Source: an uncultured Acidobacteriota bacterium (GTDB taxonomy: Bacteria; Acidobacteriota; Thermoanaerobaculia; Gp7-AA8). Taken from it: 64,000 nucleotides of DNA. Positions 7,110 to 63,124 of the stretch are shown one piece after another. Both the position numbers and the translations under genes were made by a program. The DNA lies in NCBI GenBank assembly GCA_937870635.1, contig CALMZP010000031.1:1-64000 (forward strand). Reading direction: 5' to 3'. The notes under the pieces were generated by a model, which did no database searches, had not been told where the DNA came from, and saw only the letters and a program-made list of their open reading frames with translations. Position 1 is the stretch's first letter. The number at the start of each line of letters is the position of its first letter.

Positions 7110-7189
7110 ATTTTGGATTTTGGATTTTGGATTTTGGATTTGGCCCTTGCGATCACGGTCAATCCAAAATCCAAAATCCAGAATCCAAC
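7110..7189. repeat. Heptamer palindrome, ATTTTGG family, copy 1
   Basis: Left arm of four to five ATTTTGG units (7110-7141), 19-base spacer, right arm of CCAAAAT units (7161-7189) with two point differences (CCAGAAT, CCAACAT). Lies between hbd and the crotonase gene and is expected to fold into a hairpin in the transcript. Confidence 0.95.
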
Positions 7190-11815: not shown

Positions 11816-11883
11816 ATTTTGGATTTTGGATTTTGGATTGCGAAACCCGGCCAATCCAAAATCCAAAATCCAAAATCCAAAAT
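11816..11883. repeat. Heptamer palindrome, ATTTTGG family, copy 2
   Basis: Left arm ATTTTGG x3 plus ATT (11816-11839), 13-base spacer, right arm AAT plus four CCAAAAT units (11853-11883). It begins four bases after the subtilase stop codon and ends 18 bases before the GTG start of the next gene. Confidence 0.95.
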
Positions 11884-11901: not shown

Positions 11902-12666
11902 GTGGCTTACAACACGCTTCTCACGGAAGAATCCGACGGGGTCCTCTCCGTCACCCTCAACCGCCCCGACGTCCACAACGCATTCAACGACGAGTTGATC
12001 GGCGAGGCCATCGAGCTCTTCTCGGGCATCGGAAAGGATGTTCGCGCCGTCGTCCTGCGCGGCTCTGGGCCCAACTTCTGCGCCGGCGCCGATCTGAACT
12101 GGATGTCGCGGATGGTTTCCTACACGCGCGAGGAGAACATCCGCGACTCGTCGAAGCTGGCGAAGATGTACGCGGTGGTCAATGAATGTCCGGCGCCGGT
12201 GATCGGGCGGATTCAAGGGGCGGCCATCGGCGGTGGCGTCGGACTGGTAGCAGTCTGTGACATCGCCATCTGCGCACCGGCCGGCAGGTTCGGGCTTTCG
12301 GAAGTGAAGCTGGGGATTCTCCCCGCTGTCATTTCTCCGTACGTCATCGGCAAGATCGGTGCGTCGCACGCGCGGGCGCTGTTCCTGACGGGTGAGCGCT
12401 TCGACGCGGAGCGCGCTCTGCGCATCGGGCTCGTGCATCGCGTCGCCGAGGATCTCGATGCCGCGGTCGCCGAGACCATCGACCAGTTGAAAACCTCCGG
12501 GCCCGAAGCAGTCCGTGCATGCAAGAAGCTCATCGCACACGTTGCCTCGCACGATCTGGCCGAGGCGATTCCGTACACGATCGACGCAATTGCCACGCGG
12601 AGAGTGTCGGAAGAGGGGCAGCAGGGGATGAAAGCTTTTCTGGGAAAGAAGAAAGCCCCGTGGTAA
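11902..12666 (+). CDS. liuC: Crotonase-family hydratase, methylglutaconyl-CoA hydratase-like
   Basis: 254 residues from GTG 11902; upstream frame is repeat-encoded. NRPDVHNAFNDELI, NFCAGADLNWMSRM and IQGAAIGGGVGLVAVCD place it in the crotonase family; AGADLNWM is characteristic of methylglutaconyl-CoA hydratases of leucine breakdown. The hydratase Glu pair differs from the enoyl-CoA hydratase at 7203 (GGGVGL in place of GGGCEL), as expected for this group. The next gene is a biotin carboxylase similar to the methylcrotonyl-CoA carboxylase alpha chain, the step before it in leucine degradation, which supports the assignment. Specific substrate remains an inference. Confidence 0.8.
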   Translation: MAYNTLLTEESDGVLSVTLNRPDVHNAFNDELIGEAIELFSGIGKDVRAVVLRGSGPNFCAGADLNWMSRMVSYTREENIRDSSKLAKMYAVVNECPAPVIGRIQGAAIGGGVGLVAVCDIAICAPAGRFGLSEVKLGILPAVISPYVIGKIGASHARALFLTGERFDAERALRIGLVHRVAEDLDAAVAETIDQLKTSGPEAVRACKKLIAHVASHDLAEAIPYTIDAIATRRVSEEGQQGMKAFLGKKKAPW

Positions 12667-12669
12667 AGG

Positions 12670-12732
12670 ATTTTGGATTTGCGATTTTGGATTTTGGATT
12701 GAATCCAAAATCCAAAATCCAAAATCCAAAAT
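12670..12732. repeat. Heptamer palindrome, ATTTTGG family, copy 3, ending in a start codon
   Basis: Left arm 12670-12700 with one degenerate unit (ATTTGCG), right arm CCAAAAT x4 ending at 12732. The final AT of the element plus the next G forms the ATG start codon of the downstream biotin carboxylase. Confidence 0.95.
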
Positions 12733-14179
12733 GAGAAAGCTACTGGTCGCCAACCGCGGAGAAATTGCCGTCCGCATCGCCCGCTCCTGCCGCGAGATGG
12801 GCATCGCCTCCGTGTTCGCTTACGACGAGCGCGATGACTCGCGCTTCGTCCGGCGCTTCTTCGACAGCATCGTTCCCGTCGCCAGCTATCTCGATGTCGG
12901 CGCGGTGATCGACGCGGCGCGCAAGTCGGGCGCGGATGCCATTCATCCCGGATATGGATTCCTCTCGGAGCGCGCTGCGCTTGCCGCGGCTTGCGAGGAT
13001 GCGGGCATCGTCTTCATCGGTCCGAAGTCGAAGTCGATCGCCGCCATGGGATCCAAATCCGAATCGCGTCAGCTCATGACACGCCTCGGCGTTCCCGTGG
13101 TGCCAGGTTACGACGGTGAAGACCAGAGCGATGCCACGTTGACTGCTGAGGCGAAGAAGATCGGTCTTCCGCTCCTGGTCAAGGCGTCGGCCGGCGGCGG
13201 CGGCAAGGGGATGAAGATCGTGCGCGACCCCGCGGAGCTGCAGCGGGCGCTCGAATCGGCTCGCCGCGAGGCCATGAAGGCCTTCGGCGACGACCGCCTG
13301 CTCCTCGAGCGCTACATCGAGGAGCCGCGCCATGTCGAAGTGCAGGTGTTCGGCGATTCGCGGGGAGAGATCGTCCATCTCTTCGAGCGCGACTGTTCGC
13401 TGCAGCGCCGTCACCAGAAGGTCGTCGAAGAATCTCCCGCGCCGAATTATCCGGAAACGCTGCGGGAGAAGATGACGAAGGCGGCCGTCGCCGCGGCGAG
13501 GGGCGTCGACTATCAGAACGCGGGCACCGTCGAATTCATCGTGACACCCGATGGCGAGTTTTACTTCCTGGAGATGAACACGCGGCTGCAGGTCGAGCAT
13601 CCGGTCACCGAGCTCGTCACCGGTGTCGACCTCGTCCGCGCGCAGATCGATGTCGCATCCGGGAAGCCGTTGCCGTGGAAACAATCGGATCTTCGTCAGC
13701 GCGGCCACGCCATCGAGGTCCGCGTCTACGCGGAGGACCCCGCCGACCGCTTCCTGCCGCAGAGCGGCCGCATCGCCGTCTATCGCGAGCCATCGGGTCC
13801 GGGCGTCCGTGTTGATTCGGGCGTGATGGAGGGAACCGAGGTCGGGGTGAACTTCGATCCGATGCTGGCCAAGCTGGTCTGCTGCGCGGAATCGCGCGAC
13901 GCCGCCATCGACCGCATGGACCGCGCCCTCCGCGACTTCATCGTCCTCGGCCTCAACAACAACATCTCCTGGCTGCGCCGTGTCGTGACGCACGAAGAGT
14001 TCCGCGCCGGCAAAGTGAGCACGAGGTTCCTCGCCGAGCACGAGAACGCTCTCATGGCCACGACGCCGGAGATCGTGCCGCTCATCGCCGCCGCGCTGGC
14101 TTCGACACCGCGAACGGTGAAATCCGAGCCAGCCGGCGTCACCTGTGTGTGGGACGCTCTCGGCCCGTGGGGGCGATAA
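12731..14179 (+). CDS. Biotin carboxylase subunit (acyl-CoA carboxylase)
   Basis: 482 residues. RKLLVANRGEIAVRIARSC is the N-terminal signature; ASAGGGGKGMKIV is the ATP-grasp glycine-rich loop; FLEMNTRLQVEHPVTEL carries catalytic Glu and Arg; HAIEVRVYAEDP is the C-terminal lid. Carboxylates biotin on a partner carrier protein. There is no biotinyl (BCCP) domain, which methylcrotonyl-CoA carboxylase alpha chains usually have, so the carrier must be encoded elsewhere. Context next to a methylglutaconyl-CoA hydratase suggests leucine degradation; a role in fatty acid synthesis as AccC is the alternative. Its ATG is formed by the edge of an ATTTTGG palindrome and has no Shine-Dalgarno sequence. 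Confidence 0.88.
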   Translation: MRKLLVANRGEIAVRIARSCREMGIASVFAYDERDDSRFVRRFFDSIVPVASYLDVGAVIDAARKSGADAIHPGYGFLSERAALAAACEDAGIVFIGPKSKSIAAMGSKSESRQLMTRLGVPVVPGYDGEDQSDATLTAEAKKIGLPLLVKASAGGGGKGMKIVRDPAELQRALESARREAMKAFGDDRLLLERYIEEPRHVEVQVFGDSRGEIVHLFERDCSLQRRHQKVVEESPAPNYPETLREKMTKAAVAAARGVDYQNAGTVEFIVTPDGEFYFLEMNTRLQVEHPVTELVTGVDLVRAQIDVASGKPLPWKQSDLRQRGHAIEVRVYAEDPADRFLPQSGRIAVYREPSGPGVRVDSGVMEGTEVGVNFDPMLAKLVCCAESRDAAIDRMDRALRDFIVLGLNNNISWLRRVVTHEEFRAGKVSTRFLAEHENALMATTPEIVPLIAAALASTPRTVKSEPAGVTCVWDALGPWGR

Positions 14180-14233
14180 ATTTTGGATTTTGGATTTTGG
14201 ATTCGCAAAATCCAAAATCCAAAATCCAAAATC
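14180..14233. repeat. Heptamer palindrome, ATTTTGG family, copy 4
   Basis: Near-perfect hairpin with a three-base loop, filling the gap between the convergent biotin carboxylase and permease genes. It starts at the base following the stop codon and ends four bases before the opposite stop, so it could act as a bidirectional transcription end. Confidence 0.95.
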
Positions 14234-16022: not shown

Positions 16023-17338
16023 GAAATGCCGGCCATCAGCCGTCCTGCTCTCTCCGCCGCAGTTGCCGGCGTCAGCGGCTCGCTGAGTTTGCCGCGGTAA
16101 ATCACGTGCAGGACATCCGCGAGCGCGAATGCCTCGTCGAGATCGGACGTGATGAGCAGAAGGCCTGCGCCGGCCGCGACGGCTTTGCGCAGCTCTTCGT
16201 GCACGAAGCGCGTGGCCTCGATGTCGAGCCCGCGCGTCGGCTCCGCGGCGACGATGACTTCGGGGCGCCGGTCGAGCTCCCGCGCGAGGACGATTTTCTG
16301 CTGATTGCCGCCGGAAAGGTCGCCGGCGCGCTGGCGCGGTCCCGTGGCGCGGATCCGGTAGAGATCGATGAGACTCTTCGCACGGGCGGCCCCGGCTCTC
16401 TTCGACCATCGGCGCTCGCCGAGGGCGAGGTTTTCGGCGATCGACATCTCGGCGACGATGGCGTCGCGCGTGCGATCTTCGGGGATGAATCCGATGCGCG
16501 TTTCCCGACGTGTCGCCCGCAGTCTTTCAATGAGATCGGTCTGTCCGTTCCCGGCGACCCCCACGATCGCGACGATCTCGTTGCGATGCAGGGCGAGGGA
16601 GTCGACTTGGAGAAGGGGGGTGGAACGCTCGGTCGATCTCGCGGGGGAACCCGCGGGCGAGGTCGCCCGCGCTCCAGTCACCATCGCATCGGCGATGGTT
16701 TCCGCGGTGGTCTCGGCGCGCGGTGTGTCCGCGACGATCTTTCCCCGCTGCATCACCACGACGCGCTGCGCGATCTCGAGGACCTCCGGCACCTTGTGAC
16801 TGATGAATACGACCGCCGTGCCGCGCCGGGTCCGGTCGCGGATGACGCCGAATAGCTCCGCACTCTCCATCGGCGTGAGCACGGACGTCGGCTCGTCGAG
16901 GATGAGCAGGGTCGGATCGACGGCGATGGCCTTGATCAGCTCCAGCTTCGATTTCTCTCCGACTGAGAGCTCTCCCGCGCGCCGCGATACGTCGCCGAGG
17001 GCGATCCCGGAACGCTGGACGGTCGCTTCGGCGTCGCGCTCGATCGAGCCGAGAGAGAGGAAGCGGAACGCCGTGCGGTCGATGAGCGCGAGGTTTTCGG
17101 CGATCGTCATCTCCGGGACGATCGCGAAGTGCTGGTGGACCATTCCGATCCGTTCGGGTCTTGTGATCGCGCCGCCATCAGCTCGCAGCTCTTCGGCGAC
17201 GATCCGCATCAGCGTCGTCTTGCCGGCCCCGTTCTCACCGACCAGACCGACGATCTGTCCCGGCGCAATGGAGAGCGACACGTCGTCGACGGCCAAGGTT
17301 TGGCCGAAGCGTTTGGTGATGTGTGAAAGCTGGAGCAT
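16019..17338 (-). CDS. ABC transporter ATP-binding protein with two nucleotide-binding domains
   Basis: 439 residues. The first domain has Walker A GLVGENGAGKTTLMRIV, a signature region LSVGEKSKLELIKA and Walker B LLILDEPTSVL. The second domain has a degenerate Walker A (GVAGNGQTDLIE), LSGGNQQKIVLAREL and AAEPTRGLDIEA, exactly as in the sugar/nucleoside importer ATPases (about 500 residues; this one is short). The ATG at 17338 sits on the edge of an ATTTTGG palindrome. Between the two domains, residues near 220-231 (GARATSPAGSPA) are written by a GC-rich repeat also found in intergenic DNA and in the helicase gene at 50849-52990. Confidence 0.9.
   Translation of the reverse strand: MLQLSHITKRFGQTLAVDDVSLSIAPGQIVGLVGENGAGKTTLMRIVAEELRADGGAITRPERIGMVHQHFAIVPEMTIAENLALIDRTAFRFLSLGSIERDAEATVQRSGIALGDVSRRAGELSVGEKSKLELIKAIAVDPTLLILDEPTSVLTPMESAELFGVIRDRTRRGTAVVFISHKVPEVLEIAQRVVVMQRGKIVADTPRAETTAETIADAMVTGARATSPAGSPARSTERSTPLLQVDSLALHRNEIVAIVGVAGNGQTDLIERLRATRRETRIGFIPEDRTRDAIVAEMSIAENLALGERRWSKRAGAARAKSLIDLYRIRATGPRQRAGDLSGGNQQKIVLARELDRRPEVIVAAEPTRGLDIEATRFVHEELRKAVAAGAGLLLITSDLDEAFALADVLHVIYRGKLSEPLTPATAAERAGRLMAGIS
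16641..16676. repeat. GC-rich palindrome of the GGAGCGCGGGCGACC family, in frame in the ABC ATPase gene
   Basis: CCGCGGGCGAGGTCGCCC followed by GCGCTCCA (16651-16676), preceded by the partial mirror GCGGGGGAACCCGCG. The same core appears at 20407, 36649, 51066 and, as a variant, 63561. Here it is translated in the linker between the two nucleotide-binding domains. Confidence 0.8.
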
Positions 17339-17393
17339 TTTGGATTTTGGATTTTGGATTCGAATCCAAAATCCAAAATCCAAAATCCAAAAT
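17337..17393. repeat. Heptamer palindrome, ATTTTGG family, copy 5, inside the importer operon
   Basis: Left arm 17337-17360, two-base spacer, right arm 17363-17393. On the minus strand the arm ends with CCAAAAT followed by G, giving the ATG of the ABC ATPase. It lies between the lipoprotein gene and the ATPase gene and could reduce transcription downstream of the binding protein. Confidence 0.95.
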
Positions 17394-18403: not shown

Positions 18404-18454
18404 CGTTAACCGTTAACGGTTAACGGTTAACGGTTAACGGTAACGGTTAACGGT
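18404..18454. repeat. GGTTAAC heptamer array
   Basis: About seven units of GGTTAAC/GTTAACC with one unit missing a base (GGTAACG). Because GTTAAC is itself a palindrome every unit is self-complementary. It lies between the divergent lipoprotein gene and the small acidic protein gene. Confidence 0.9.
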
Positions 18455-18790: not shown

Positions 18791-20389
18791 ATGAACTGGA
18801 AAACTCGGATTTTCGTCGCTTGCTTCGCAGCAGCGATTGTCGCCGGCAGCGCTTCCGCGCAGCTTTCGGCGCAGTACCGCGACTGGGCCAACGGGCCCGC
18901 CAAATGGATCATGACCGCGGACGAGACCGCGAAGTGGAAGCAGGTCCGGAACGACAGCGACGCCAAGGCGTTTGTCGATCTGTTCTGGGCACGCCGCGAC
19001 CCTTCACCGGGCACTCCCGCCAACGAATTCCGCGATGAGTTCGACCGCCGCGTCGCCACCGCCGACGCCCAGTTCGGACAGGCCCGCAAGAAGGGCTCGA
19101 TGACCGATCGCGGGCGCATCTTCATCGTCCTCGGCGCGCCGTACACCGTGCAGCGCATGAACCCCGAAGGACAGGGAACGGTGCAGGCGCCGTCTCTCGG
19201 CGAGGCGCGCGATACCATTCAGAACTACAGCCCCCGCCAGATCTGGACCTGGGAACAGGCCCGCACCAACATCGACCTCGGCCAGCCGAAAGCCGAGATC
19301 GTGTTCGTCGACCAGTACGCGAGCAACGACTGGACTCTCGAACGCCAGGCGCGCACCCCGGTCGACGATCTGCTGAAGCGCGCCGTCGCCAGCAACATCA
19401 AGGAACCGAACCTGACATCGGCGCCCGACTACTCGGCGCAGACCGCGCAGGCCAAGCCCGTGCGGCAGCAGGCGCCGGCAGCGCCAGCCGCCCCTGCCAC
19501 CACCGGTCTGACGACGCAGTCCCTCGTCGCCGCCGTCACCGAGCTCAAAGCGGCGAAGGCCAATCCATACAAACCTCTCAGTATCGCCTACGCCGAGATG
19601 CTCACGCCCAACGGTGAGTTCTTCGTGCCGGTGCAGCTCTACATCCCGAAGGACGCCAACCTCACCGCCGAAGCCGTCACGACTTTCTTCGGAGTGATCG
19701 AAGACAACGCCGGCAACCAGGTCCTCACCTTCGAAGAGCCCGCGAAGCTGTCCGCGACGAAGGGCGACCTCTATTTCGACAAGTCGCTCAACATCAAGCC
19801 TGGCACCTATCGCGCGACGCTTGGCCTCGCCGGCGCCGACGGCAAGCCGGTGATCATGACCAGCACGCAGATGGAGATCAAAGATCTTCCGACGACCGCG
19901 TCGGGCGTCTCACGCCTCGTCCTCGCCAGCGACATTCATCAGACCGAAGAGGCCGCGCTCATGGGCGCGCCGTTCGCGTTCGGTCGCGTGAAGATCGTGC
20001 CGAAGGGCGACAACACCTTCAGCAACCGCGACGAGATCAACTACTTCCTCGAGATCGTCAACCCGACGCTGGACGAGGGAACGAACCTGCCGAAGCTTCA
20101 GGTCAAGATCGACCTGCAGGCCGCGCCGGGGAAGGACGGGAAGCCGGGTCGCAAGATCTCCGCACCTCCCGCCGATGTCACCGCGCTTCCGCTCACCGGC
20201 GCTCCGGGACCGGGCCAGTACGCGCTCATGGCGGGCATCCCGCTGGGAGAGATGAAGAACCCCCTCGCACCCGGCGACTACACGTTCCGTGTGACCGTGT
20301 ACGACCAGGTGGGCAACAAGAACTGGACCGCCGAGCAGAAGCTCAAGCTCGTTGCGGCGCCCGCTCCTCCGCCGGCTGCTTCGAAATAG
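18791..20389 (+). CDS. GWxTD domain exported protein
   Basis: 532 residues. Signal peptide ending ASAQ near residue 24. WANGPAKWIMTADETAKWK and [20 protein letters not shown] are the GWxTD domain blocks (here KWIMTADE), a domain of unknown function common in Acidobacteriota and related phyla. GRIFIVLGAP follows. A Pro/Ala-rich linker near residues 215-240 (APAAPAAPAT) leads to a C-terminal half that looks like Ig-like beta sheet. A ribosome site AGGAAGG precedes the ATG. The next gene is a paralogue. Confidence 0.9.
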   Translation: MNWKTRIFVACFAAAIVAGSASAQLSAQYRDWANGPAKWIMTADETAKWKQVRNDSDAKAFVDLFWARRDPSPGTPANEFRDEFDRRVATADAQFGQARKKGSMTDRGRIFIVLGAPYTVQRMNPEGQGTVQAPSLGEARDTIQNYSPRQIWTWEQARTNIDLGQPKAEIVFVDQYASNDWTLERQARTPVDDLLKRAVASNIKEPNLTSAPDYSAQTAQAKPVRQQAPAAPAAPATTGLTTQSLVAAVTELKAAKANPYKPLSIAYAEMLTPNGEFFVPVQLYIPKDANLTAEAVTTFFGVIEDNAGNQVLTFEEPAKLSATKGDLYFDKSLNIKPGTYRATLGLAGADGKPVIMTSTQMEIKDLPTTASGVSRLVLASDIHQTEEAALMGAPFAFGRVKIVPKGDNTFSNRDEINYFLEIVNPTLDEGTNLPKLQVKIDLQAAPGKDGKPGRKISAPPADVTALPLTGAPGPGQYALMAGIPLGEMKNPLAPGDYTFRVTVYDQVGNKNWTAEQKLKLVAAPAPPPAASK

Positions 20390-20406
20390 CAGTTTTTCCA
20401 CGCTTC

Positions 20407-20435
20407 GGGGGGCGGGCGGGGTCGCCCGCCCTCCA
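20407..20435. repeat. GC-rich palindrome between the GWxTD genes
   Basis: GGGCGGGCGGGGTCGCCC with GCCCTCCAG, a variant of the GC-rich palindrome family at 16641, 36649, 51066 and 63561, placed between the stop of the first GWxTD gene and the start of the second. Confidence 0.6.
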
Positions 20436-20453
20436 GGGCGTATCCTTTCTCCC

Positions 20454-21644
20454 ATGCGCTCCCTTTCCCTTTCCTTCCTCGTGCTTCTGTCGGCGGCAGC
20501 TCTCGTTGCTCAGACGGAAGCCGCTCTCGATTTCCCCAAAGGCCCGGCGCAATGGATCATGACCGCCGAGGAGCGGAACGCGTGGAAACGCGTGAAGTCG
20601 GAAGAGGAAGCGGCGGAGGTGGTCGCGCTCTTCTGGGCTCGCCGCGACCCGACTCCGAATACGTTCGCCAACGAGTTCCGCGACGAGTTCAACCAGCGCG
20701 TGAAGTTCGCCGACGCCCGCTTCAAGGAGGGCAACCGCCGTGGCTCGCTCACCGAGCGAGGCCGCGTCGGTGTCACCCTCGGATTTCCGAAGTCGATGTC
20801 GACGGATCTGGAGAAGCGGACCAGCCAGTACGCCAGCAATATGGAGGGCGCCGATCCCACCGGCGGGCGTGCTCTCGCCGCGCGTGAAGAGTGGATCTAC
20901 ACCTATGAAGAATCGATCAAGTTCGGGCTGCCGAAGATCGAGGTGGTGTTCCTCCACGACGGGCACATGGGCCGGGTGCGCCGCGATACGCAGCGCAACG
21001 ATTTCATCAGCGCCATCCCGGCGGCCACGAAGCTCTACATCCGGAATCCGGAGCTGACGGCCGTGCCTGAGTGGGCTCGTGCCGGGGCCCTTCAATACGA
21101 GCCCCTTCAGGCTGCGTCGACTCCGGCTCCGGCCGAGGATCGACCTTCGACCTTCGACCTTCGACCTTCGGAGGCGAGTGTCGCCAGTGCTCCGGAAACA
21201 ACTCCGAAGGTGGAAGGTCGAGGGTCGAAGGTCGAATCCGCCCCGAAACCGAAAGCCGCGAGCGTCGGCAAGCTCACTCTGGTCAGGGACGCGTTTTCCC
21301 TCGAGCCCGAAAACGGCAAAGACCCCTTCGCCGGGCTGGCCAACGTCCCTGAGTTCCGTCGCAGCGAGGAGCTGGGGTGGGTCCTCGAGTACTGCACGGG
21401 GAGTCTGGATCGAACGCTGTCAGAGGTTCAGGTGACGCTGAAGATCAGCGGCATGGTGAACAACGAGAAGGTCAATTTCAATGCGCCCGCCGAAGACGTC
21501 GTGCCTGATGCGATCAGGGTTTCGCCGGGGTGCTATCTCGTCCGCGGCGGTGTGCCGCTGATGGACATGGATCCCGCCAGCTACACGATGTTCGTGAAGA
21601 TCGGGAGCTACAATCTCACAAAGGACTTCCGGGTCATCGAGTGA
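20454..21644 (+). CDS. GWxTD domain exported protein, paralogue with an in-frame palindrome
   Basis: 396 residues from ATG 20454. Signal peptide [17 protein letters not shown]. The GWxTD blocks [15 protein letters not shown] and [18 protein letters not shown] align well with the preceding protein, as does [10 protein letters not shown]. Residues about 230-262 ([13 protein letters not shown] ... [10 protein letters not shown]) are encoded by a CTTCGAC heptamer palindrome in frame between the GWxTD domain and the C-terminal beta domain. Its stop codon overlaps the start of ribBA if GTG 21641 is used. Confidence 0.88.
21141..21237. repeat. CTTCGAC heptamer palindrome inside a coding sequence
   Basis: Left arm of CGACCTT units (21141-21170), 36-base spacer, right arm of AAGGTCG units with two substitutions (21207-21237). 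The element and its spacer are read through in frame by the GWxTD gene. Same architecture as the intergenic ATTTTGG elements, different unit. Confidence 0.9.
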
Positions 21645-22849
21645 ACATGCCGTTCGCAACCATCGAAGAAGCAGCCGAGCTGTATCGCAATGGCGAGCTC
21701 GTGATCATCGTCGACGACGAGGATCGCGAGAACGAAGGTGACCTCTGCCTGGCCGCGGACATGGTCACGCCGAAGGCCATCAACTTCATGGCGCGGTACG
21801 GACGCGGCCTGATCTGCCTCGCGCTGACGGAGGATCGGTGCCGCGAGCTGGATCTTCCATTGATGGTGGAGAACAACACCTCGCCTTACGGAACCGCTTT
21901 CACGGTCTCGATCGAAGCCCGAGGCCGTGTCACCACCGGCATTTCCGCGCATGACCGTGCGGAGACGGTGCGCGTCGCGATCGATCCGAAGTCGCGGCCG
22001 GCGGATCTGACGCGTCCGGGCCATGTTTTCCCGCTGCGCGCGCGCAAGGGTGGCGTTCTGAAGCGCGCCGGTCAGACCGAAGCGTCGGTCGATCTCGCTG
22101 CGATCGCTGGCATGACGCCGGCCGCCGTCATCTGCGAGATCATGAACGAGGACGGAACGATGGCGCGGATGCCCGATCTGCGTGAGTTCGCCGTCCAGCA
22201 CGGCCTCAAGATCATCACCGTCGCCGACATCATCAAGTACAGGATGCAGACCGAGAAGCACGTGCACTGCATCGCGTCTCCGGTCCTTCCCACCGAGTAC
22301 GGCGAGTTCCGCGTCCATGGCTACAGGAGCGACATCACCGGCGAGGAGCACGTCGCTCTCGTGAAGGGCGAGATCGGTGAAGACGACGACGTTCTCGTGC
22401 GCGTTCACTCCTCGTGCCTCACGGGCGATGTCTTCCACTCCAGCCGCTGCGACTGTGGCGAGCAGCTCGAGACGGCGTTCGAGCTGATCTCGAAGGAAGG
22501 GAAGGGCGTCATCCTCTATCTGCTGCAGGAGGGCCGCGGCATCGGCCTGTTCAACAAGTTGAAAGCGTACGAGCTGCAGGATGGGGGAGACGACACGATC
22601 GAAGCGAACGCGAAGCTCGGGTTCGCGCCCGACATCCGCGAATACGGAACCGGCTCCCAGATCCTCCGCGACCTCGGCGTCCGGAAGATCAGGCTCATGA
22701 CGAACAATCCTGCAAAGTACGTCGCGATCGAAGGCTTCGGCCTGAAGATCGTCGAGCGCGTCCCGCTGGAGATCGCCCCCTCCTCCACGACTCGAAAATA
22801 TCTCGAAGCGAAGAAGAAGAAGCTGGGGCATATTCTGGAGCTTGTTTGA
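21641..22849 (+). CDS. ribBA: Riboflavin biosynthesis bifunctional protein RibBA
   Basis: 402 residues. The N-terminal domain is 3,4-dihydroxy-2-butanone 4-phosphate synthase ([37 protein letters not shown]); the C-terminal domain is GTP cyclohydrolase II with its zinc ligands in [18 protein letters not shown] and [13 protein letters not shown]. These are the two entry reactions of riboflavin synthesis, from ribulose 5-phosphate and from GTP. GTG 21641 overlaps the previous stop as GTGA; ATG 21647 is an equally possible start. No FMN riboswitch is visible upstream, and the gene is cut off from other rib genes. Confidence 0.96.
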
Positions 22850-22932
22850 TTTTGGATTTTAGATTTTGGATTTTGGATTGGGACTTCCAATCCAATCGAA
22901 AATCCAAAATCCAAAATCCAAAATCCAAAATC
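22849..22932. repeat. Heptamer palindrome, ATTTTGG family, copy 6
   Basis: Begins with the last base of the ribBA stop codon. Left arm contains ATTTTAG as a variant unit; right arm CGAAAAT then CCAAAAT x4. Ends a few bases before the next ATG. Confidence 0.95.
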
Positions 22933-27122: not shown

Positions 27123-27340
27123 GTGCTGAGTGCTGAGTGCTTGGTGCTTGGTGCTTAGTGCTTGGTGCTGGGGGAATCGCGATTCACGTCATCCTGAGAG
27201 CCGGCGAAGCGCGGGCGTTGGACCTCAGGTTGGGCATCTGGAGGCCCTTCGGCGTAATCGCGCCTCAGGGTGACGTGGGCACCAAGCACCAAGCACCGAG
27301 CACCGAGCACCAGGCACCAGGCACGGAGCACCCAGCACCC
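27123..27340. repeat. Composite palindrome: GTGCTTG heptamers around a GTCATCCTGAG element
   Basis: Left arm GTGCTGA/GTGCTTG/GTGCTTA units (27123-27171), central palindromic element from ACGTCATCCTGAG (27186) to CGCCTCAGGGTGACGT (27261-27276), right arm CACCAAG/CACCGAG/CACCAGG units (27278-27340). The outer arms are complementary across about 200 bp. Confidence 0.9.
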
Positions 27341-27359
27341 ATGTACCCTGTCCCGATCG

Positions 27360-28172
27360 ATGGACCCCGGACCCTTCCGCCGCGCACTCGTCTTTGCCGA
27401 CCGGATCATTGCTCCGCTCGTCATTTTCGGATTCGCTTACGTCGGCACGATGATCCTGCTGGCGCCCAGGTTCCCGGGCTGGTTTCAGTGGACGGCACTC
27501 GTCAGCGCGACGGTCGCGACCATCGCTTCGCTCGTGTGGGAGCGCGGCCGCTGGAACATCGGCCTCGTCACCTCGCCGGGGCGTGCGACTGGGGACGCCG
27601 TACTGGGCCTGGCGTTTGCCGTGGTCCTCATCGGCATTGCCGACCTTCTGATCCTCCTCACGACGAAGATGCGCCACGGTTTCGAGATGCGGTTTCCCGT
27701 GGCGGAGACGTTTGCCGTGTTTCTGCCAGCCGTCGTGCACGAAGAGCTGCTCTTTCGCGGCTATACGTTCCAGAAGCTGTGGCGATGGCGGCCGTGGCTG
27801 GCGATCATCGGCGTCTCGGTGGTTTTCGCCGCGCTGCATGCCGCCAACGCGTCCGTCACCCCCGTCGGCCTTCTGAACGTGTTTCTGGGCGGAGTGGTGC
27901 TGTCGCTCGCGTACGCCGTCTACCAGCGCCTGTGGTTTCCGATCGGGCTGCACCTCGGCTGGAACATGATGTCCGGCCCTTTTCTGGGATACGAGGTGAG
28001 CGGATATCCTCCGGCGGAGTCGATCCTCACTGTCGGGGGCGGTGGTCACCCGCTGCTGACAGGAGGGGCATTCGGGATCGAGGGCTCCCTCTGGATGACA
28101 GTCGTCGAAATGGCATCCATCGCCGTCCTCCTGCGGTGGCGCTGGAATTCAACATTCACCATTCAACATTGA
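27360..28172 (+). CDS. CPBP-family intramembrane metalloprotease
   Basis: 270 residues with about eight hydrophobic helices. VVHEELLFRGYTFQKLW carries the EExxxR motif (paired Glu plus Arg), VVFAALHAANAS the first His, and IGLHLGWNMMSG the second His motif HxxxN, all required in the CPBP (Rce1/CAAX-like) family. Substrates of bacterial members are mostly unknown. The C-terminal NSTFTIQH is encoded by an ATTCAAC heptamer array rather than by family sequence. Start ATG 27360 follows a composite repeat. Confidence 0.88.
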   Translation: MDPGPFRRALVFADRIIAPLVIFGFAYVGTMILLAPRFPGWFQWTALVSATVATIASLVWERGRWNIGLVTSPGRATGDAVLGLAFAVVLIGIADLLILLTTKMRHGFEMRFPVAETFAVFLPAVVHEELLFRGYTFQKLWRWRPWLAIIGVSVVFAALHAANASVTPVGLLNVFLGGVVLSLAYAVYQRLWFPIGLHLGWNMMSGPFLGYEVSGYPPAESILTVGGGGHPLLTGGAFGIEGSLWMTVVEMASIAVLLRWRWNSTFTIQH

Positions 28173-28181
28173 ACGTTCACC
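28147..28181. repeat. ATTCAAC heptamer array bridging CPBP stop and thiolase start
   Basis: Five consecutive heptamers: ATTCAAC, ATTCACC, ATTCAAC, ATTGAAC, GTTCACC, then ATG of the thiolase immediately. The first four encode the C-terminus and stop of the CPBP protein; the last touches the thiolase start codon. GTTCACC is the complement of the GGTGAAC unit at 57673. Confidence 0.85.
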
Positions 28182-42010: not shown

Positions 42011-42189
42011 GTGACGAGTTACGAGTGACGAGTGGCGAGTGACGGGTGACTTCGGCACGTCACTCTGAGCCGCGTGAGACGGCGAAGGGCCTCAAACGGC
42101 GCGCTCTTCGCATCCTGAGATCCTTCGGCGTCTTCGCGCCTCAGGATGACGTGATTAGCGATGATGCCCGTCACTCGTCACCCGTCACT
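42011..42189. repeat. Composite palindrome: GTGACGA heptamers around a GTCA-CTGAG element
   Basis: Left arm GTGACGA/GTTACGA/GTGACGA/GTGGCGA/GTGACGG (42011-42050), central palindrome with AGACGGCGAAGGGCCTCAA and TTCGGCGTCTTCGCGCCTCA (42056-42153), right arm CCCGTCACTCGTCACCCGTCAC (42168-42189). It separates the radical SAM gene from the metallophosphoesterase gene. Confidence 0.9.
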
Positions 42190-42974: not shown

Positions 42975-43042
42975 ATTTTGGTTTTCAGATTTTGGATTTG
43001 AGAATTTCATCAATCCAAAATCCAAAATCCAAAATCCAAAAT
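42968..43042. repeat. Heptamer palindrome, ATTTTGG family, copy 7 (degenerate left arm)
   Basis: Left arm ATTTTAG, ATTTTGG, TTTTCAG, ATTTTGG (42968-42999), right arm AAT plus CCAAAAT units to 43042. The first unit contains the TAG stop codon of the metallophosphoesterase gene. An ATG at the right edge (43041) is followed by 15 codons and a stop, so it does not start Kup. Confidence 0.9.
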
Positions 43043-44959: not shown

Positions 44960-44997
44960 CGTTAACCGTTAACCGTTAACCGTTAACCGTTAACCGT
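44960..44997. repeat. GTTAACC heptamer array (left half of a composite)
   Basis: Five GTTAACC units directly after the kup stop codon. The complementary GGTTAAC array lies at 46630-46731, on the other side of the IS element. Confidence 0.95.
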
Positions 44998-45027: not shown

Positions 45028-46528
45028 GAGGCTGTGCAGGTATCGATTTCTCGAGCGACACGATGACGAGCAGGGCCGATCGGTCGTAAGACCGCGATCG
45101 GCCAATCAGCCTCTTTGGCTTTGGCCAGGTCGCCGGATTCGATCTAAGGGCCTCGGTTCATCATACTTGTCAGGCGCGGGATGGGTTTCCATCGTCGCGC
45201 GATGGTTCTTGCCTAAGCGAGTGACCACTCACGCCGCATGTTGTTTGCTATGGCGAGCAACAACGCAACGGATCGAGCCTTGTTGATGCTTCGGACGAGG
45301 AACCGGGTCAGTCCATGCGCTCGAGCATGAGCGTTTGCGAGTTCTGCCGTTGCTCCTCGTTCCTTGTAGGCAGTTTTTGCATATTCGGTAGCCATTCGCG
45401 TTCGCCAATCAGCGACCGCTTCTGAGTCGGTAGGGCGCACCTCGGTGGCATCTCGTTCAAGAGCGCGCGGTGGACGAACAGGTGCGATGACGTGGGTGCC
45501 GCGTTCCGATAAAGAGTCGATGCCTGCTAGAGTCACGCACCCGCCATCCTCAAGCCATTCCATTGGATTCTTCCCGAAGCGTTTGTCGATCTGCTCGGCT
45601 AGAGGAACCGTCATTCGTTGATCGGTACCGTGGTTGTTGACCTCGACTGCAGCGACAACCTTCGATCGGGTGTCGGTCACGAAGTGGACATTCAGTGCCG
45701 GCCGAAAGCCTCCGTCGGCCATCTTCATCACTCGTGCCTCGGGATCGGTCGTTGAGCTTCGCGCTTCGCTCTTCTTCTTGCCGTTGTTCGACTTCTTCCG
45801 CTCCTCGATCTCGGGGAGTTCCGCTAATGCCTCTTCGATCCGCTGGGATCGATCACGCGCTGCTCGAAGTCGCGCCGCATCTCGCCTCCGAGTCCCTGCT
45901 GCCCCGTCACGCTCGAGTTCCTGTTTGAGGTCTTCCACTTGTTGCCGTGCAATCTCCCGGCATTCCTCGAGCCCACCCTTGGTGTGGAACGATCCCGATC
46001 CCGCCGATGCGCGTACCTTCATCCCGTCCTGGGCCACCCGTTCGAGCGTCACCAGATCTTTGTCCATGAGCACCGCAACCGTGTTTGTCAGTATCCGATC
46101 GAACTCTTTCTCCGACAAACTGCGGAAGTCCGAGAGCACGTGATAGCCAGGTGTGACGCCCCCGCAAATCCACTGGTATCGCCAGTCCGTCTCACACAGC
46201 CGCGCTATCTCTCGCGCCGAGCCAATCCCCTCGATCGTTCCGAATAGCCACAGCGCCATCAGGATCTTTGGATCGATCGCTGATCGGCCCGGCGAGCCCT
46301 CCACCGCTCGGATCTTCTCGTAGAAGTCCGACAAGTCGACCCGCTCTACAAACTCCCACACTGCTCGCACCGGGTCACCCTCCCGAACCATTCGATCCAG
46401 ATCCAAGGGCATCAGCCGCAGTTGCGTCCGGTTCGGGCTTAACACTCGCTTGTTGTCTTTCCGCATGGCTAATTATAGACTCTAATTAGGCATCTTAATA
46501 GTGAATGATTCAATTTCTGCACAGCCTC
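45028..46528. mobile_element. Complete insertion sequence, IS1182-like
   Basis: 1501 bp. Terminal inverted repeats GAGGCTGTGCAG (45028-45039) and CTGCACAGCCTC (46517-46528) are exact complements. The host sequence TGA is duplicated on both sides (45025-45027 and 46529-46531). The element carries one transposase gene on the minus strand, with 185 bp and 62 bp of end sequence. It lies within a GTCACCCTGAG-type palindrome; removing it and one TGA restores CCCTGAGCCGCGAAGACGG, which matches the sister copy at 42066 closely. The family name rests on the transposase. Confidence 0.95.
45213..46466 (-). CDS. DDE transposase, IS1182-family-like
   Basis: 417 residues. LDLDRMVREGDPVRAVWEFV and GRSAIDPKILMALWLFGTIE with GSAREIARLCETD are the N-terminal DNA-binding block of IS1182-type transposases. 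The DDE residues fit D in RVAQDGMKVRASAG, D in VHFVTDTRSKVVAAVE and E near YKERGATAELANAHAR, followed by the RSINKARSVALLLAIANNM block. An alanine/arginine coiled region with a KKSNNGKKKSEARSS linker lies between the first and second Asp. No frameshift or stop, so it may be active. Confidence 0.93.
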   Translation of the reverse strand: MRKDNKRVLSPNRTQLRLMPLDLDRMVREGDPVRAVWEFVERVDLSDFYEKIRAVEGSPGRSAIDPKILMALWLFGTIEGIGSAREIARLCETDWRYQWICGGVTPGYHVLSDFRSLSEKEFDRILTNTVAVLMDKDLVTLERVAQDGMKVRASAGSGSFHTKGGLEECREIARQQVEDLKQELERDGAAGTRRRDAARLRAARDRSQRIEEALAELPEIEERKKSNNGKKKSEARSSTTDPEARVMKMADGGFRPALNVHFVTDTRSKVVAAVEVNNHGTDQRMTVPLAEQIDKRFGKNPMEWLEDGGCVTLAGIDSLSERGTHVIAPVRPPRALERDATEVRPTDSEAVADWRTRMATEYAKTAYKERGATAELANAHARAHGLTRFLVRSINKARSVALLLAIANNMRREWSLA

Positions 46529-46614: not shown

Positions 46615-46629
46615 GGTTACCCTCTTCGC

Positions 46630-46731
46630 GGTTAACGGTTAACGGTTAACGGTTAACGGTTAACGGTTAACGGTTAACGGTTAACGGTTAACGGTTCGCG
46701 GTCAACGGTTAACGGGTTATCGGTTATCGGT
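46630..46731. repeat. GGTTAAC heptamer array, longest copy
   Basis: About thirteen units, ten of them exact GGTTAAC; the distal end decays to GGTTCGC, GGTCAAC, GGTTATC. It reaches to within four bases of the aat stop codon and is the right arm of the composite whose left arm is at 44960-44997. Confidence 0.95.
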
Positions 46732-46734
46732 CAC

Positions 46735-47370
46735 CTAGAACAACGTGAGCTCTTTGCCTTGCGCCGCTTCCAGCATGTCCAGGAACCTCGTCCGCGTGAT
46801 CAGGCGAGCGCCGAGGGCTTCCATGTGCGGGGTCATGACCTGGCAGTCGAGCCACGTGGCGCCGCGCTCGCGGAGGTGATCGATCAGGTGCAGGAGGGCG
46901 AGCTTCGAGCCGTTGGGTTTGCGGTAGAACATGCTCTCGCCGGTGAACACGCCGCCTGAGTCGACCCCGTAAACGCCGCCCACGAGATCTTCTCCATCCC
47001 ACACTTCGACGCTGTGGGCATCGCCGGCGCGATGCAACGCCGTGTAGGCCTCGATGATCGCCGGCTCGATCCACGTACCGTCCTGGTCGGGTCGGGGAGC
47101 CTCGGCGCAGGCCGCGATCACTCTCGAGAACGCGCGGTCGATCGAGAACGTGAAAGGTGTCTTGCGGGCGATCTTCTGCAGGCTTCGGCCGACGTGCAGC
47201 TCATCGAAGATCAGAACCGCGCGGCGGCGCGGCGAGAACCACGGCATCGGCAGGTCGTCGTGTGGCCAGGGAAAGATGCCATGGCGATAGGCGTCGCGCA
47301 GCACTTTCACGCGCAGATCGTTGCCGAAGGCGACGATGTCGCCTCTGACGGTGCGAGGATCAGGGAACAT
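46735..47370 (-). CDS. aat: Leucyl/phenylalanyl-tRNA--protein transferase
   Basis: 211 residues from ATG 47370. FPWPHDDLPMPWFSPRRRAV, DGTWIEPAIIEAYTALHRAG, HSVEVWDGEDLVGGVYGVDS and GGVFTGESMFYRKPNGSK are the Aat family blocks. Adds Leu or Phe to proteins with N-terminal Lys/Arg, marking them for ClpS-ClpAP. It is encoded downstream of clpS and clpA, so the whole pathway is in one operon. The start codon is created by the edge of an ATTTTGG palindrome, without a Shine-Dalgarno sequence; upstream residues in the longer frame are repeat-derived. Confidence 0.95.
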   Translation of the reverse strand: MFPDPRTVRGDIVAFGNDLRVKVLRDAYRHGIFPWPHDDLPMPWFSPRRRAVLIFDELHVGRSLQKIARKTPFTFSIDRAFSRVIAACAEAPRPDQDGTWIEPAIIEAYTALHRAGDAHSVEVWDGEDLVGGVYGVDSGGVFTGESMFYRKPNGSKLALLHLIDHLRERGATWLDCQVMTPHMEALGARLITRTRFLDMLEAAQGKELTLF

Positions 47371-47443
47371 TTTGGATTTTGGATTTTGGATTTTGGATTT
47401 GGAAATTGGGCGGGCGGGAAATCCAAAATCCAAAATCCAAAAT

Positions 47444-47449
<6 letters not shown>
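47369..47449. repeat. Heptamer palindrome, ATTTTGG family, copy 8, linking clpA stop and aat start
   Basis: Left arm 47369-47401, 19-base spacer, right arm 47421-47449 including a CTAAAAT unit. On the minus strand ATTTTAG gives the TAG stop of clpA, and the last CCAAAAT plus G gives the ATG of aat. One element thus writes both ends. Confidence 0.95.
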
Positions 47450-49676
<2,227 letters not shown>

Positions 49677-49680
<4 letters not shown>

Positions 49681-53018: not shown

Positions 53019-53172
53019 TGCTTCGTGCCTCGTGCTTGGTGCTGGGACCCACGTCATCCTGAGGCGCGAAGACGCCGAAGGACCTCAGAATGCGAAGATT
53101 GCGTCGACTGAGGCCCTTCGCTGTCTCCGCGGCTCAGGGTGACGTGAGCACCAAGCACCAAGCACTCAGCAC
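53019..53172. repeat. Composite palindrome: GTGCTTG heptamers around a GTCATCCTGAGG element
   Basis: Left arm GTGCTTC/GTGCCTC/GTGCTTG/GTGCTGG (53019-53046), central palindrome from CACGTCATCCTGAGGCGC (53050) to CGGCTCAGGGTGACGTGAG (53130-53147), right arm CACCAAG/CACCAAG/CACTCAG (53148-53172). Sister of the composite at 27123-27340. Confidence 0.9.
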
Positions 53173-53219
53173 TTCCCCGCGTGACACGGCCGCTCCACAG
53201 AATGTAGAGTCCTCCAACC

Positions 53220-55844: not shown

Positions 55845-57674
55845 ATGTCGGAAGAGAAGTGGTCGGAAACCGTTGCGTCGCTCGGTTCAGCGTCGCTGTC
55901 GGACACCGACTCGCCGGAGATCCTTCGACGCAAGCTCGGTGAATCGCGTCTCCTCGCCGAACAACTCAGCTTTCTCGGCAGCGCCGTACGGGTGGCCGGC
56001 CAGGGCATCGCCATTCTCACGCCGGCCGTGGAGACCATCGGACCGCGCATCGCGTTCGTGAACGACGGCTTCTGCTCGATGTACGGCGTCCGTCGCGAAG
56101 AGGTCATCGGACAGACGCCGGTGATCTTCGGCATCGTCGATCGGCATCAGGCCATCTTCGAAGACCTGCTCGACCACGTTTTCGACAATGAAACGTTCGA
56201 AGCCGAGGCGACGGCGAAGCGGAAGGACGGGACGGAATTCGAGCTCGATCTGCAGCTGATCCCCGTCGAGGACGGGGGGGAGCTCACTCACTGGGTGGCG
56301 TTCCTTCGCGACATCAGCGAAGCCAAGAACCAGGTGCAGCTGCTCCGGCACCAGGCGATGCACGACGGTCTGACCTCTCTGCCGAACCGGGTGATGCTTC
56401 TCGATCGATTCGAAAAGGCGATCGAGAAGGCCCGCCAGTCGAATTCGATGGTGGCGCTTCTCCTGATGGACCTCGATCGGTTCAAGGAAGTGAATGACAC
56501 GTTCGGCCACCACTTCGGCGACATCCTCCTCAAACAGGTCGCCTTCCGTCTTCAGAATCAGGTCCGTCTCGAGGACACCGTGGCACGGCTCGGCGGCGAT
56601 GAGTTCGCCGTGGTCGTGCCCGACCCAGCGGACACCGACACCGTCGCTGCCGCGGCGCGGCGAATCCTCAACAGCCTCGAGCAGCCGTTCGTCATCGAAG
56701 CACAGGTGCTCGAGGTGGGGGCGAGCATTGGAGTGGCGCTGTATCCCGTTCACGGGACCGACGCGCGAACGCTGCTGCGCCGTGCCGACGTGGCCATGTA
56801 TGCCGCGAAGCAGGGGCAGCTGGGCTACACCTTTCATCGCGACGAGTACGACTCGCGTACGCCCGATGATCTTTCCCTTGTCGTGGAGATGCGCGCTGCG
56901 CTCGAGCGCGACGAGTTCGAGCTGTATTACCAGCCGAAACTCCATCTCCGCAGCGGGCTCGTGACCCGCGTGGAAGTGCTGGTGCGCTGGAACCATCCGC
57001 AGCGCGGCCTGCTCGCTCCGGGAGCATTCATTCCGATCGCCGAGCGGACGGGTCTCATCAAGCCGCTGACAGACTGGATCTTCAACCGGGCACTCCAGCA
57101 GTGCCGCGCATGGCAGGACGCTCACGTGCCGATTCACATGGCCATCAACATCTCGGCGAAAAGCCTGCAGGAGCAGACGATCGCGGCGAAGATTCACTCG
57201 CTCCTGACGAAATGGGATGTCGATCCGCGCTTCCTCAAGATCGAGATCACCGAGAGCAGCATCATGGCCGACCCGGCTCATGCCCTCGCAGTCATGTCGC
57301 TACTGCAGTCGCTGGGGATCCGTCTGTCGATCGACGACTTCGGCACAGGCTACTCGTCGCTCACACATCTCCGGGAGCTTCCCGTCGACGAGATCAAGGT
57401 GGATAAGTCGTTCGTCACGCGCATGACGGCGAACCCGGCCGATGCGGCCATCGTCCGCACAGTGATCGACCTCGCGCACAATCTCGACAAACAGGTTTGT
57501 GCCGAGGGTGTGGAGGACGAGGTGACGTGGCGGGCGCTCGGCGAGATGGGCTGTGATCTCGCGCAGGGCTACTGGATCAGCCGGCCGGTCCCGGCCGACA
57601 AACTTCTCACGTGGCTGACGGAATCATCGTGGGGCCTGAATCTCTCGGGCGCCGGCTACCGCGCAGGGCGCTGA
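55845..57674 (+). CDS. PAS-GGDEF-EAL cyclic di-GMP protein
   Basis: 609 residues. PAS domain (residues about 55-165: FVNDGFCSMYGVRREEVIGQ; EDGGELTHWVAFLRDISEAK), GGDEF domain (HDGLTSLPNRVMLLDRFEKA; RLGGDEFAVVV, intact active site) and EAL domain (RVEVLVRWNHPQRGLLAPGA, where EAL is EVL; NISAKSL; IEITESS; LSIDDFGTGYSSL; VDEIKVDKSF; CAEGVED; CDLAQGYWIS). All residues needed for both c-di-GMP synthesis and breakdown are kept. No membrane segments, so cytosolic; the PAS domain senses the input. The stop codon lies in a GGTGAAC heptamer array. Confidence 0.95.
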   Translation: MSEEKWSETVASLGSASLSDTDSPEILRRKLGESRLLAEQLSFLGSAVRVAGQGIAILTPAVETIGPRIAFVNDGFCSMYGVRREEVIGQTPVIFGIVDRHQAIFEDLLDHVFDNETFEAEATAKRKDGTEFELDLQLIPVEDGGELTHWVAFLRDISEAKNQVQLLRHQAMHDGLTSLPNRVMLLDRFEKAIEKARQSNSMVALLLMDLDRFKEVNDTFGHHFGDILLKQVAFRLQNQVRLEDTVARLGGDEFAVVVPDPADTDTVAAAARRILNSLEQPFVIEAQVLEVGASIGVALYPVHGTDARTLLRRADVAMYAAKQGQLGYTFHRDEYDSRTPDDLSLVVEMRAALERDEFELYYQPKLHLRSGLVTRVEVLVRWNHPQRGLLAPGAFIPIAERTGLIKPLTDWIFNRALQQCRAWQDAHVPIHMAINISAKSLQEQTIAAKIHSLLTKWDVDPRFLKIEITESSIMADPAHALAVMSLLQSLGIRLSIDDFGTGYSSLTHLRELPVDEIKVDKSFVTRMTANPADAAIVRTVIDLAHNLDKQVCAEGVEDEVTWRALGEMGCDLAQGYWISRPVPADKLLTWLTESSWGLNLSGAGYRAGR

Positions 57675-57700
57675 ACGGTGAACGGTGAACGGTGAACGGT
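57673..57700. repeat. GGTGAAC heptamer array
   Basis: Four units of GAACGGT. The first supplies the final bases of the GGDEF-EAL stop codon, and the array is followed by TAATTAAC, reaching to within three bases of the stop of the opposite gene. Confidence 0.85.
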
Positions 57701-59670: not shown

Positions 59671-59732
59671 ATTTTGGATTTTGGATTTTAGATTTTGGAT
59701 TTCCCGCTTTCCAAAATCCAAAATCCAAAATC
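59671..59732. repeat. Heptamer palindrome, ATTTTGG family, copy 9
   Basis: Left arm 59671-59701 (one ATTTTAG unit), spacer TTCCCGCTT, right arm CCAAAAT x3 to 59732. It lies between convergent genes and its end overlaps the PFK stop codon (59731-59733). Confidence 0.93.
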
Positions 59733-63056: not shown

Positions 63057-63124
63057 ATTTTGGATTTTGGATTTTGGATTTTGGATTCACGCCGATCCAA
63101 AATCCAAAATCCAAAATCCAAAAT
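63057..63124. repeat. Heptamer palindrome, ATTTTGG family, copy 10
   Basis: Left arm ATTTTGG x4 plus ATT (63057-63087), short spacer, right arm CCAAAAT x4 to 63124, between the divergent hydrolase and thioesterase genes. Any promoters for both genes must lie in or next to the element. Confidence 0.95.

Follow-up and report, generated by a model that had tools for sequence, protein, structure and literature searches.

Repeats of seven nucleotides are known in bacteria and have been little studied. Direct repeats of the heptamer TAACTGA occur in Beggiatoaceae, Cyanobacteria and some Bacteroidetes (MacGregor, 2015, PMC4679880). Hundreds of these units per genome lie between genes, and many stand immediately upstream of start codons that have no Shine-Dalgarno (SD) sequence (PMC4679880). 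In Xanthomonas, arrays of the heptamer GGGAATC are found in the gaps between genes, contain many inverted pairs, lie near stop codons or overlap them, and are rare between divergent genes (Rehm et al., 2015, PMC4692102). The cyanobacterial heptanucleotide STRR of Calothrix (cited in PMC4692102) are, by their description there, also tandem repeats with several 7-nt units per genome. The enterobacterial REP/BIME elements, in turn, are dispersed intergenic palindromes, a share of which is located within 15 nt of stop codons (PMC12306157). The arrays analyzed here resemble each of these systems, in the case of the STRR by description only, and they have the properties of bacterial intergenic heptamer repeats (PMC4692102, PMC4679880), being tandem repeats of 7 nt, present in many copies and located between genes. 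The genes that follow such arrays have to be translated, and in this respect termination-reinitiation is well documented at overlapping genes, where an SD sequence is not always needed (PMC6728339).

The window, i.e. the whole stretch of 64,000 nucleotides that was analyzed, belongs to a 4.52 Mb draft genome in 171 contigs, which is Thermoanaerobaculia-like (Acidobacteriota) and comes from a soil-bacterium lineage. From this genome, 1.62 Mb was read in stretches, and the genes in this sample were called by a simple method based on codon usage, which gives approximate, predicted start positions. The window contains 67 copies of ATTTTGG, where 3 would be expected, and these form 10 arrays, in which the 7-nt unit is repeated a few times and, after a short loop, the same unit follows inverted (CCAAAAT). 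The whole genome contains 856 matches to ATTTTGGATTTTGG, and the reversed control gave 0. The 1.62 Mb sample holds 94 arrays with a median length of about 70 bp, and 90 of the 94 are strict palindromes composed of a left arm and an inverted right arm. Four of the 94, along with 9 of 170 arrays built from other units, fall inside called genes, which places the arrays between genes; open reading frames running through them (..DFGFWIL..) are likely spurious. Period 7 stands far above periods 4-13 in the genome itself and in the loci of its family, and does not do so in loci from outside the class. The ten arrays of the window, to which no strand is assigned, are the following.

7110-7177, palindromic array, 11 nt past a stop and 25 nt ahead of a start
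11816-11883, palindromic array, 4 nt past a stop TGA; the ATG at its right edge is out of frame with the conserved gene
12670-12732, palindromic array between an enoyl-CoA-hydratase-like gene (stop TAA ending at 12666) and the biotin carboxylase gene
14180-14232, palindromic array in a convergent gap, immediately following the stop TAA of biotin carboxylase, with the opposite stop at 4 nt
17337-17393, palindromic array between two minus-strand genes, for a lipoprotein (stop TGA 5 nt off) and for the ABC ATPase
22849-22931, palindromic array that supplies, with its first A, the last letter of the preceding gene's stop TGA; the next start is 6 nt away
42975-43042, palindromic array immediately 3' of a TAG made by an ATTTTAG unit
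47369-47443, palindromic array between a clpA-like gene and aat, both on the minus strand; an outside unit ATTTTAG (47444-47450) gives the stop TAG
59671-59731, palindromic array that separates convergent genes and ends with a letter of the minus-strand gene's stop TGA
63057-63124, palindromic array between divergent genes

At three of these arrays a start codon is formed by the array edge. As a sequence-only reading of the window had stated, the ATGs at 12731 (plus strand), 17338 and 47370 (both minus strand) consist of the AT that ends the last CCAAAAT unit and of the G that follows it, and direct reading also confirms that no SD site precedes them, the upstream DNA containing only CCAAAAT units.

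12731-12733, plus strand, ATG start codon of biotin carboxylase, its AT common with the last CCAAAAT unit; the sole in-frame start, with an N-terminus that aligns with relatives
17336-17338, minus strand, ATG start codon of the ABC ATPase, its AT common with the array
47368-47370, minus strand, ATG start codon of aat, its AT common with the array; many relatives start two codons further upstream

The same reading held that each ATG is the only start matching the conserved N-terminus. This is correct for biotin carboxylase, but the frames of the ABC ATPase and aat are open upstream as far as a TTG inside the array (at 17383 and 47433, respectively), the use of which would add unconserved, array-coded residues. 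The statement that the proteins begin normally is likewise only nearly right, since aat starts with MFPDP here and with an MSRFPDP-like sequence, two codons longer, in many relatives. All three shared starts are real; to speak of three, however, is an understatement, for they are part of a small set of cases that recur within a repeat spread over the whole genome. In the 1.62 Mb sample, a predicted start is formed at CCAAAAT|G in 10 of 86 start-facing edges, and G stands next to the array at 25/86 start-facing vs 6/87 stop-facing edges (P = 1.4e-4). About 15 edges are flush with a start, and 10-11 of them end in CCAAA|ATG, one phase of seven (binomial P about 4e-7, with starts taken from a crude home-made gene caller and the phase picked after inspection of the data). 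The sharing of start codons is beyond chance, yet it is the tail of a larger pattern, which is centered on gene ends.

This larger pattern is visible in the distances to the neighboring genes. For the 86 arrays with a gene on either side, these are co-directional in 57 cases, convergent in 14 and divergent in 15. Seven stop-facing edges in the 1.62 Mb overlap the stop codon, 10 lie at 0 nt and 16 at 4 nt from it, the median being 4 nt. Start-facing edges are looser, with a median of 20 nt in co-directional gaps, apart from the sharp peak of 10 at CCAAAAT|G, and in convergent gaps the array is tight to the stops on both sides. Just 0-15 nt of other non-coding DNA are left by 14 of the 57 co-directional arrays, while gaps of 0-15 nt account for about 1% of all non-coding bases in co-directional gaps. 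This excess of tight junctions results either from insertion aimed at gene boundaries or from loss of the original gap. The upstream stop stands in an ATGA context at 6/19 tight junctions, compared with 54/608 (P = 0.006). A target-site duplication at ATGA overlaps was considered and rejected: the enrichment fits insertion into overlapping gene pairs, but cheR and cheB do not overlap in relatives, which makes the enrichment a hint only. A Y1 transposase was also considered as the mover of the arrays; the genome has three matches to Y1 transposase-like genes (PF01797), and no link between them and the arrays was made.

ATTTTGG is one of many units. About 170 further period-7 arrays in the 1.62 Mb are built from other heptamers (AACCGTT, AACATTC, AAGGTCG, AAGGTCC, ACCCTGG, AAGCACC and more), and in this single genome a dozen or more different heptamers, mostly in palindromic form, stand at gene ends. 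These arrays show the same preference for stops, 69/174 lying within 10 nt of a stop vs 11/134 within 10 nt of a start (P = 1e-10). Three of them share a start codon, at CTTCAT|G, ACCGT|G and GTCCAA|TG, to which they lend AT, GT or A. The rate of such sharing is higher for ATTTTGG arrays (10/86 vs 3/134, P = 0.006), and the ATTTTGG/CCAAAAT unit offers an AT at a place suited to it.

Several arrays of other units were noted in the window. A palindromic CGACCTT/AAGGTCG array at 21140-21236 lies inside ORF 20352-21644 and is apparently translated. Two AACCGTT arms (44960-44997 and 46629-46731), in the gap between the convergent kup-like and aat genes, flank a transposase-like ORF (45213-46466), an arrangement that resembles an array with an insertion sequence in its loop. 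The arms of an AAGCACT/AAGCACC palindrome are found ahead of a gene at 27123-27169 and 27279-27341, the right arm ending in ..CAGCACCC|ATG. More period-7 arms are located at 18404-18454, 28147-28174, 42014-42050, 53147-53173 and 57672-57700 (AACCGTT, AACATTC, ACGAGTG, AAGCACC, AACGGTG).

The closest named relatives, identified via aat, are metagenome-assembled Thermoanaerobaculia and other Acidobacteria, some of them labelled gp7. ATTTTGG arrays are absent from all 17 family genomes searched, and in the relatives' loci 7 nt still stands out as the tandem period, with different units. Five junctions were compared, those of biotin carboxylase, the ABC ATPase, aat, cheB and ftsY, and there the relatives often have another palindrome at the same position, with arms such as GGCAGAT/ATCTGCC, ACTGAGT/ACTCAGT, TCATCCC, GATGAAC, CCTCAGT and GTGCCGC. 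In a scripted count, palindromic short-unit arrays occur within 170 nt upstream of 14/74 orthologues vs 9/169 control starts (P = 0.0016, an optimistic value because related genomes are treated as independent); the controls are other starts in the same loci and include tightly packed genes with little room. The cheB ATG of relative G002 is flush with ..CCTCAGTC, and the biotin carboxylase ATG of G008 is flush with ..GAGCAACC. In G007 and G009 (L192, L196), the sole in-frame aat starts found near the conserved N-terminus fall within a heptamer array, part of which may be translated. Some relatives (L291, L315) carry palindromic units of 8 nt rather than 7 nt (e.g. GGCTCAGA) before the same genes.

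Relatives that have no array at the ABC ATPase junction show tiny gaps or overlaps there, e.g. TTCTGATGCTG in G011, where stop and start overlap. At the aat junction, the clpA-like protein ends in DELTLAGF* here, with the TAG taken from the ATTTTAG unit, vs DELTLQY* or DELRLAY* in relatives, and aat is two codons shorter than in many relatives, the missing codons being those between the start and F. By this comparison, the array has apparently replaced the ends of both genes. The clpA-like gene itself (47444-49680, minus strand) is split into two overlapping frames (47444-48427 and 48268-49680), which reflects a frameshift or an assembly error.

Starts that lack an SD sequence are ordinary in this genome, where even a 4-nt SD is present in only 28-44% of genes. 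Among genes with a long upstream gap, 28% have an SD-like 4-mer at the right spacing (control 13%), and among operon-like genes 44% do (control 12%). In the sample of the genome, a TANNNT box peaks 6-9 nt upstream of the starts of genes with long gaps. This box is a published mark of leaderless genes (PMC3160421), and its position would point to widespread leaderless transcription in the acidobacterial lineage of this genome. The RNA of the three junctions is predicted to form hairpins of -45.2 kcal/mol (12640-12760, biotin carboxylase; z -5.35), -43.1 kcal/mol (ABC ATPase; z -6.38) and -46.5 kcal/mol (aat; z -5.92), and in all three the AU of the AUG lies within the predicted stem.

These data bear on the proposal, also made in the sequence-only reading, that initiation is directed in another way, by the A-rich right arm, which would make the repeat a functional 5' leader. 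Such an SD-independent signal, e.g. a site for ribosomal protein S1 or a cold-shock protein, would agree with the preference for the CCAAA|ATG phase, with the enrichment of G past start-facing edges and with the higher rate at which ATTTTGG shares starts, and it has a precedent in the role proposed for the TAACTGA heptamers of Beggiatoaceae (PMC4679880). However, the arm is predicted to be paired, and because the AU of the AUG is buried in the stem, free loading of ribosomes on it is argued against. Moreover, A is not favored at -1 to -3 of the genome's other ATG starts, other heptamers also share start codons, and arrays of unrelated letters are flush with the ATG of the same genes in relatives. 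The majority of arrays stay clear of any start and hug stops, with 76/86 start-facing edges forming no start and many arrays lying between convergent genes, so that we consider an initiation signal unlikely. Leaderless genes, transcribed from the ATG by a promoter inside the array, are very improbable. Leaderless starts do look common in the genome, and the outer-unit variant CTAAAAT creates a TAAAAT box ahead of a few other genes, but the three starts follow tightly behind a co-directional gene and are preceded by CAAAAT at 5 nt spacing; an in-array promoter was rejected for them because no TANNNT is present at the right spacing.

The hairpin might instead act as a bridge, looping itself out and keeping the upstream stop and any SD-like stretch beside the start, by which coupling would be preserved. 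In the predicted folds, stop and AUG do lie at opposite feet of one hairpin, the stop close to the 5' foot and the AUG at the 3' foot, and the junctions are tight on both sides. A looped-out SD was rejected, however, since tight junctions show no enrichment of SD-like 4-mers ahead of the left arm (9/16 vs 17/41, P = 0.38); mirrored changes between the arms, the mark of selected pairing, are not significant, and the AU of the AUG is in the stem, all of which leaves the bridge improbable. The arrays may also be REP-like elements of 3' ends, i.e. hairpins behind the stop that protect or terminate transcripts or stall ribosomes, their proximity to starts being a by-product of narrow gaps. The tight edges are those facing stops, on both sides in convergent gaps, and ribosome stalling has been reported for REP sequences that lie within 15 nt of a stop (PMC12306157). 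On the other hand, 15/86 arrays lie between divergent genes, where there is no stop, and no U-run follows the hairpin in the sequences read, for which reason the arrays are not standard intrinsic terminators. A function at 3' ends is thus a possibility that we view with some doubt, and it is compatible with the explanation of the start codons that we prefer.

That explanation, to which we assign a probability of roughly 0.7, is a dispersed repeat with fast turnover that is tolerated at stop-start junctions, the genes behind it being translated without an SD, probably by coupling. It is supported because the stop-facing edges mostly overlap the stop or adjoin it (≤4 nt), because about 170 arrays of other heptamers have the same stop bias and three of them share starts, and because unrelated arrays, some flush with the ATG, precede the same genes in relatives. 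Further support comes from the clpA and aat ends, both of which differ from those of relatives at the array, and from the commonness of SD-less starts together with the tight or overlapping ABC ATPase junctions of array-free relatives. The other alternative of the sequence-only reading, a tolerated insertion of the element beside a G, agrees with the stop-hugging placement, the other units and the relatives; the insertion itself we infer, and arrival by replacement would serve as well. Lineage-specific palindromic 7-nt arrays are dispersed between genes, chiefly just past stop codons, and where the stop-start junction is very narrow, the far edge of the array abuts the next start codon. An array ending in AT beside a G then has letters in common with that codon. 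The array would be tolerated if the downstream gene is, as is most likely, translated without an SD and coupled to the upstream gene, with ribosomes that reach the upstream stop opening the hairpin or restarting at its 3' foot. Coupled translation across a hairpin of 57-75 nt would be the simplest reading. Tolerance does not fully explain the phase preference and the higher start-sharing rate of ATTTTGG, which still speak for a role of this unit; both would require that survivors were selected or that AT is a preferred target. It is quite unlikely that the element is indifferent to its letters, with the family retaining palindromes of period 7 at certain stop-start junctions as the unit turns over between genera. 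If this were true, period and hairpin, not sequence, would do the job, e.g. that of keeping stop and start together for coupling.

Compared with the known systems, the arrays do not belong to the TAACTGA repeats, the unit being ATTTTGG/CCAAAAT and the arrays inverted; TAACTGA forms direct repeats of one unit that mostly face starts, whereas inverted arms, many units and a tighter fit to stops are found here. The Xanthomonas arrays are built from one G-rich unit with quadruplex potential, whereas in this genome A+T-rich and G+C-rich units occur side by side, the arrays are nearly always inverted, and the unit turns over between genera. With REP elements they have in common that they are dispersed intergenic palindromes able to form hairpins (90/94 palindromic, predicted folds with z from -5 to -6), but REP is a conserved non-tandem hairpin and the arms here are tandem 7-mers. 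Termination-reinitiation is the likely mode of translation of the downstream genes, with the difference that a hairpin of 57-75 nt parts stop and start. No description of arrays of this kind in Acidobacteria was found in the open-access literature searched. Nor did we find there a system that combines many units per genome, a nearly constant palindromic form and a change of unit between genera while the same junctions stay occupied. The comparison also carries a warning, namely that a repeat adjoining a start codon that has no SD does not necessarily signal initiation. It makes two questions about heptamer repeats, why seven and what spreads them, directly testable here.
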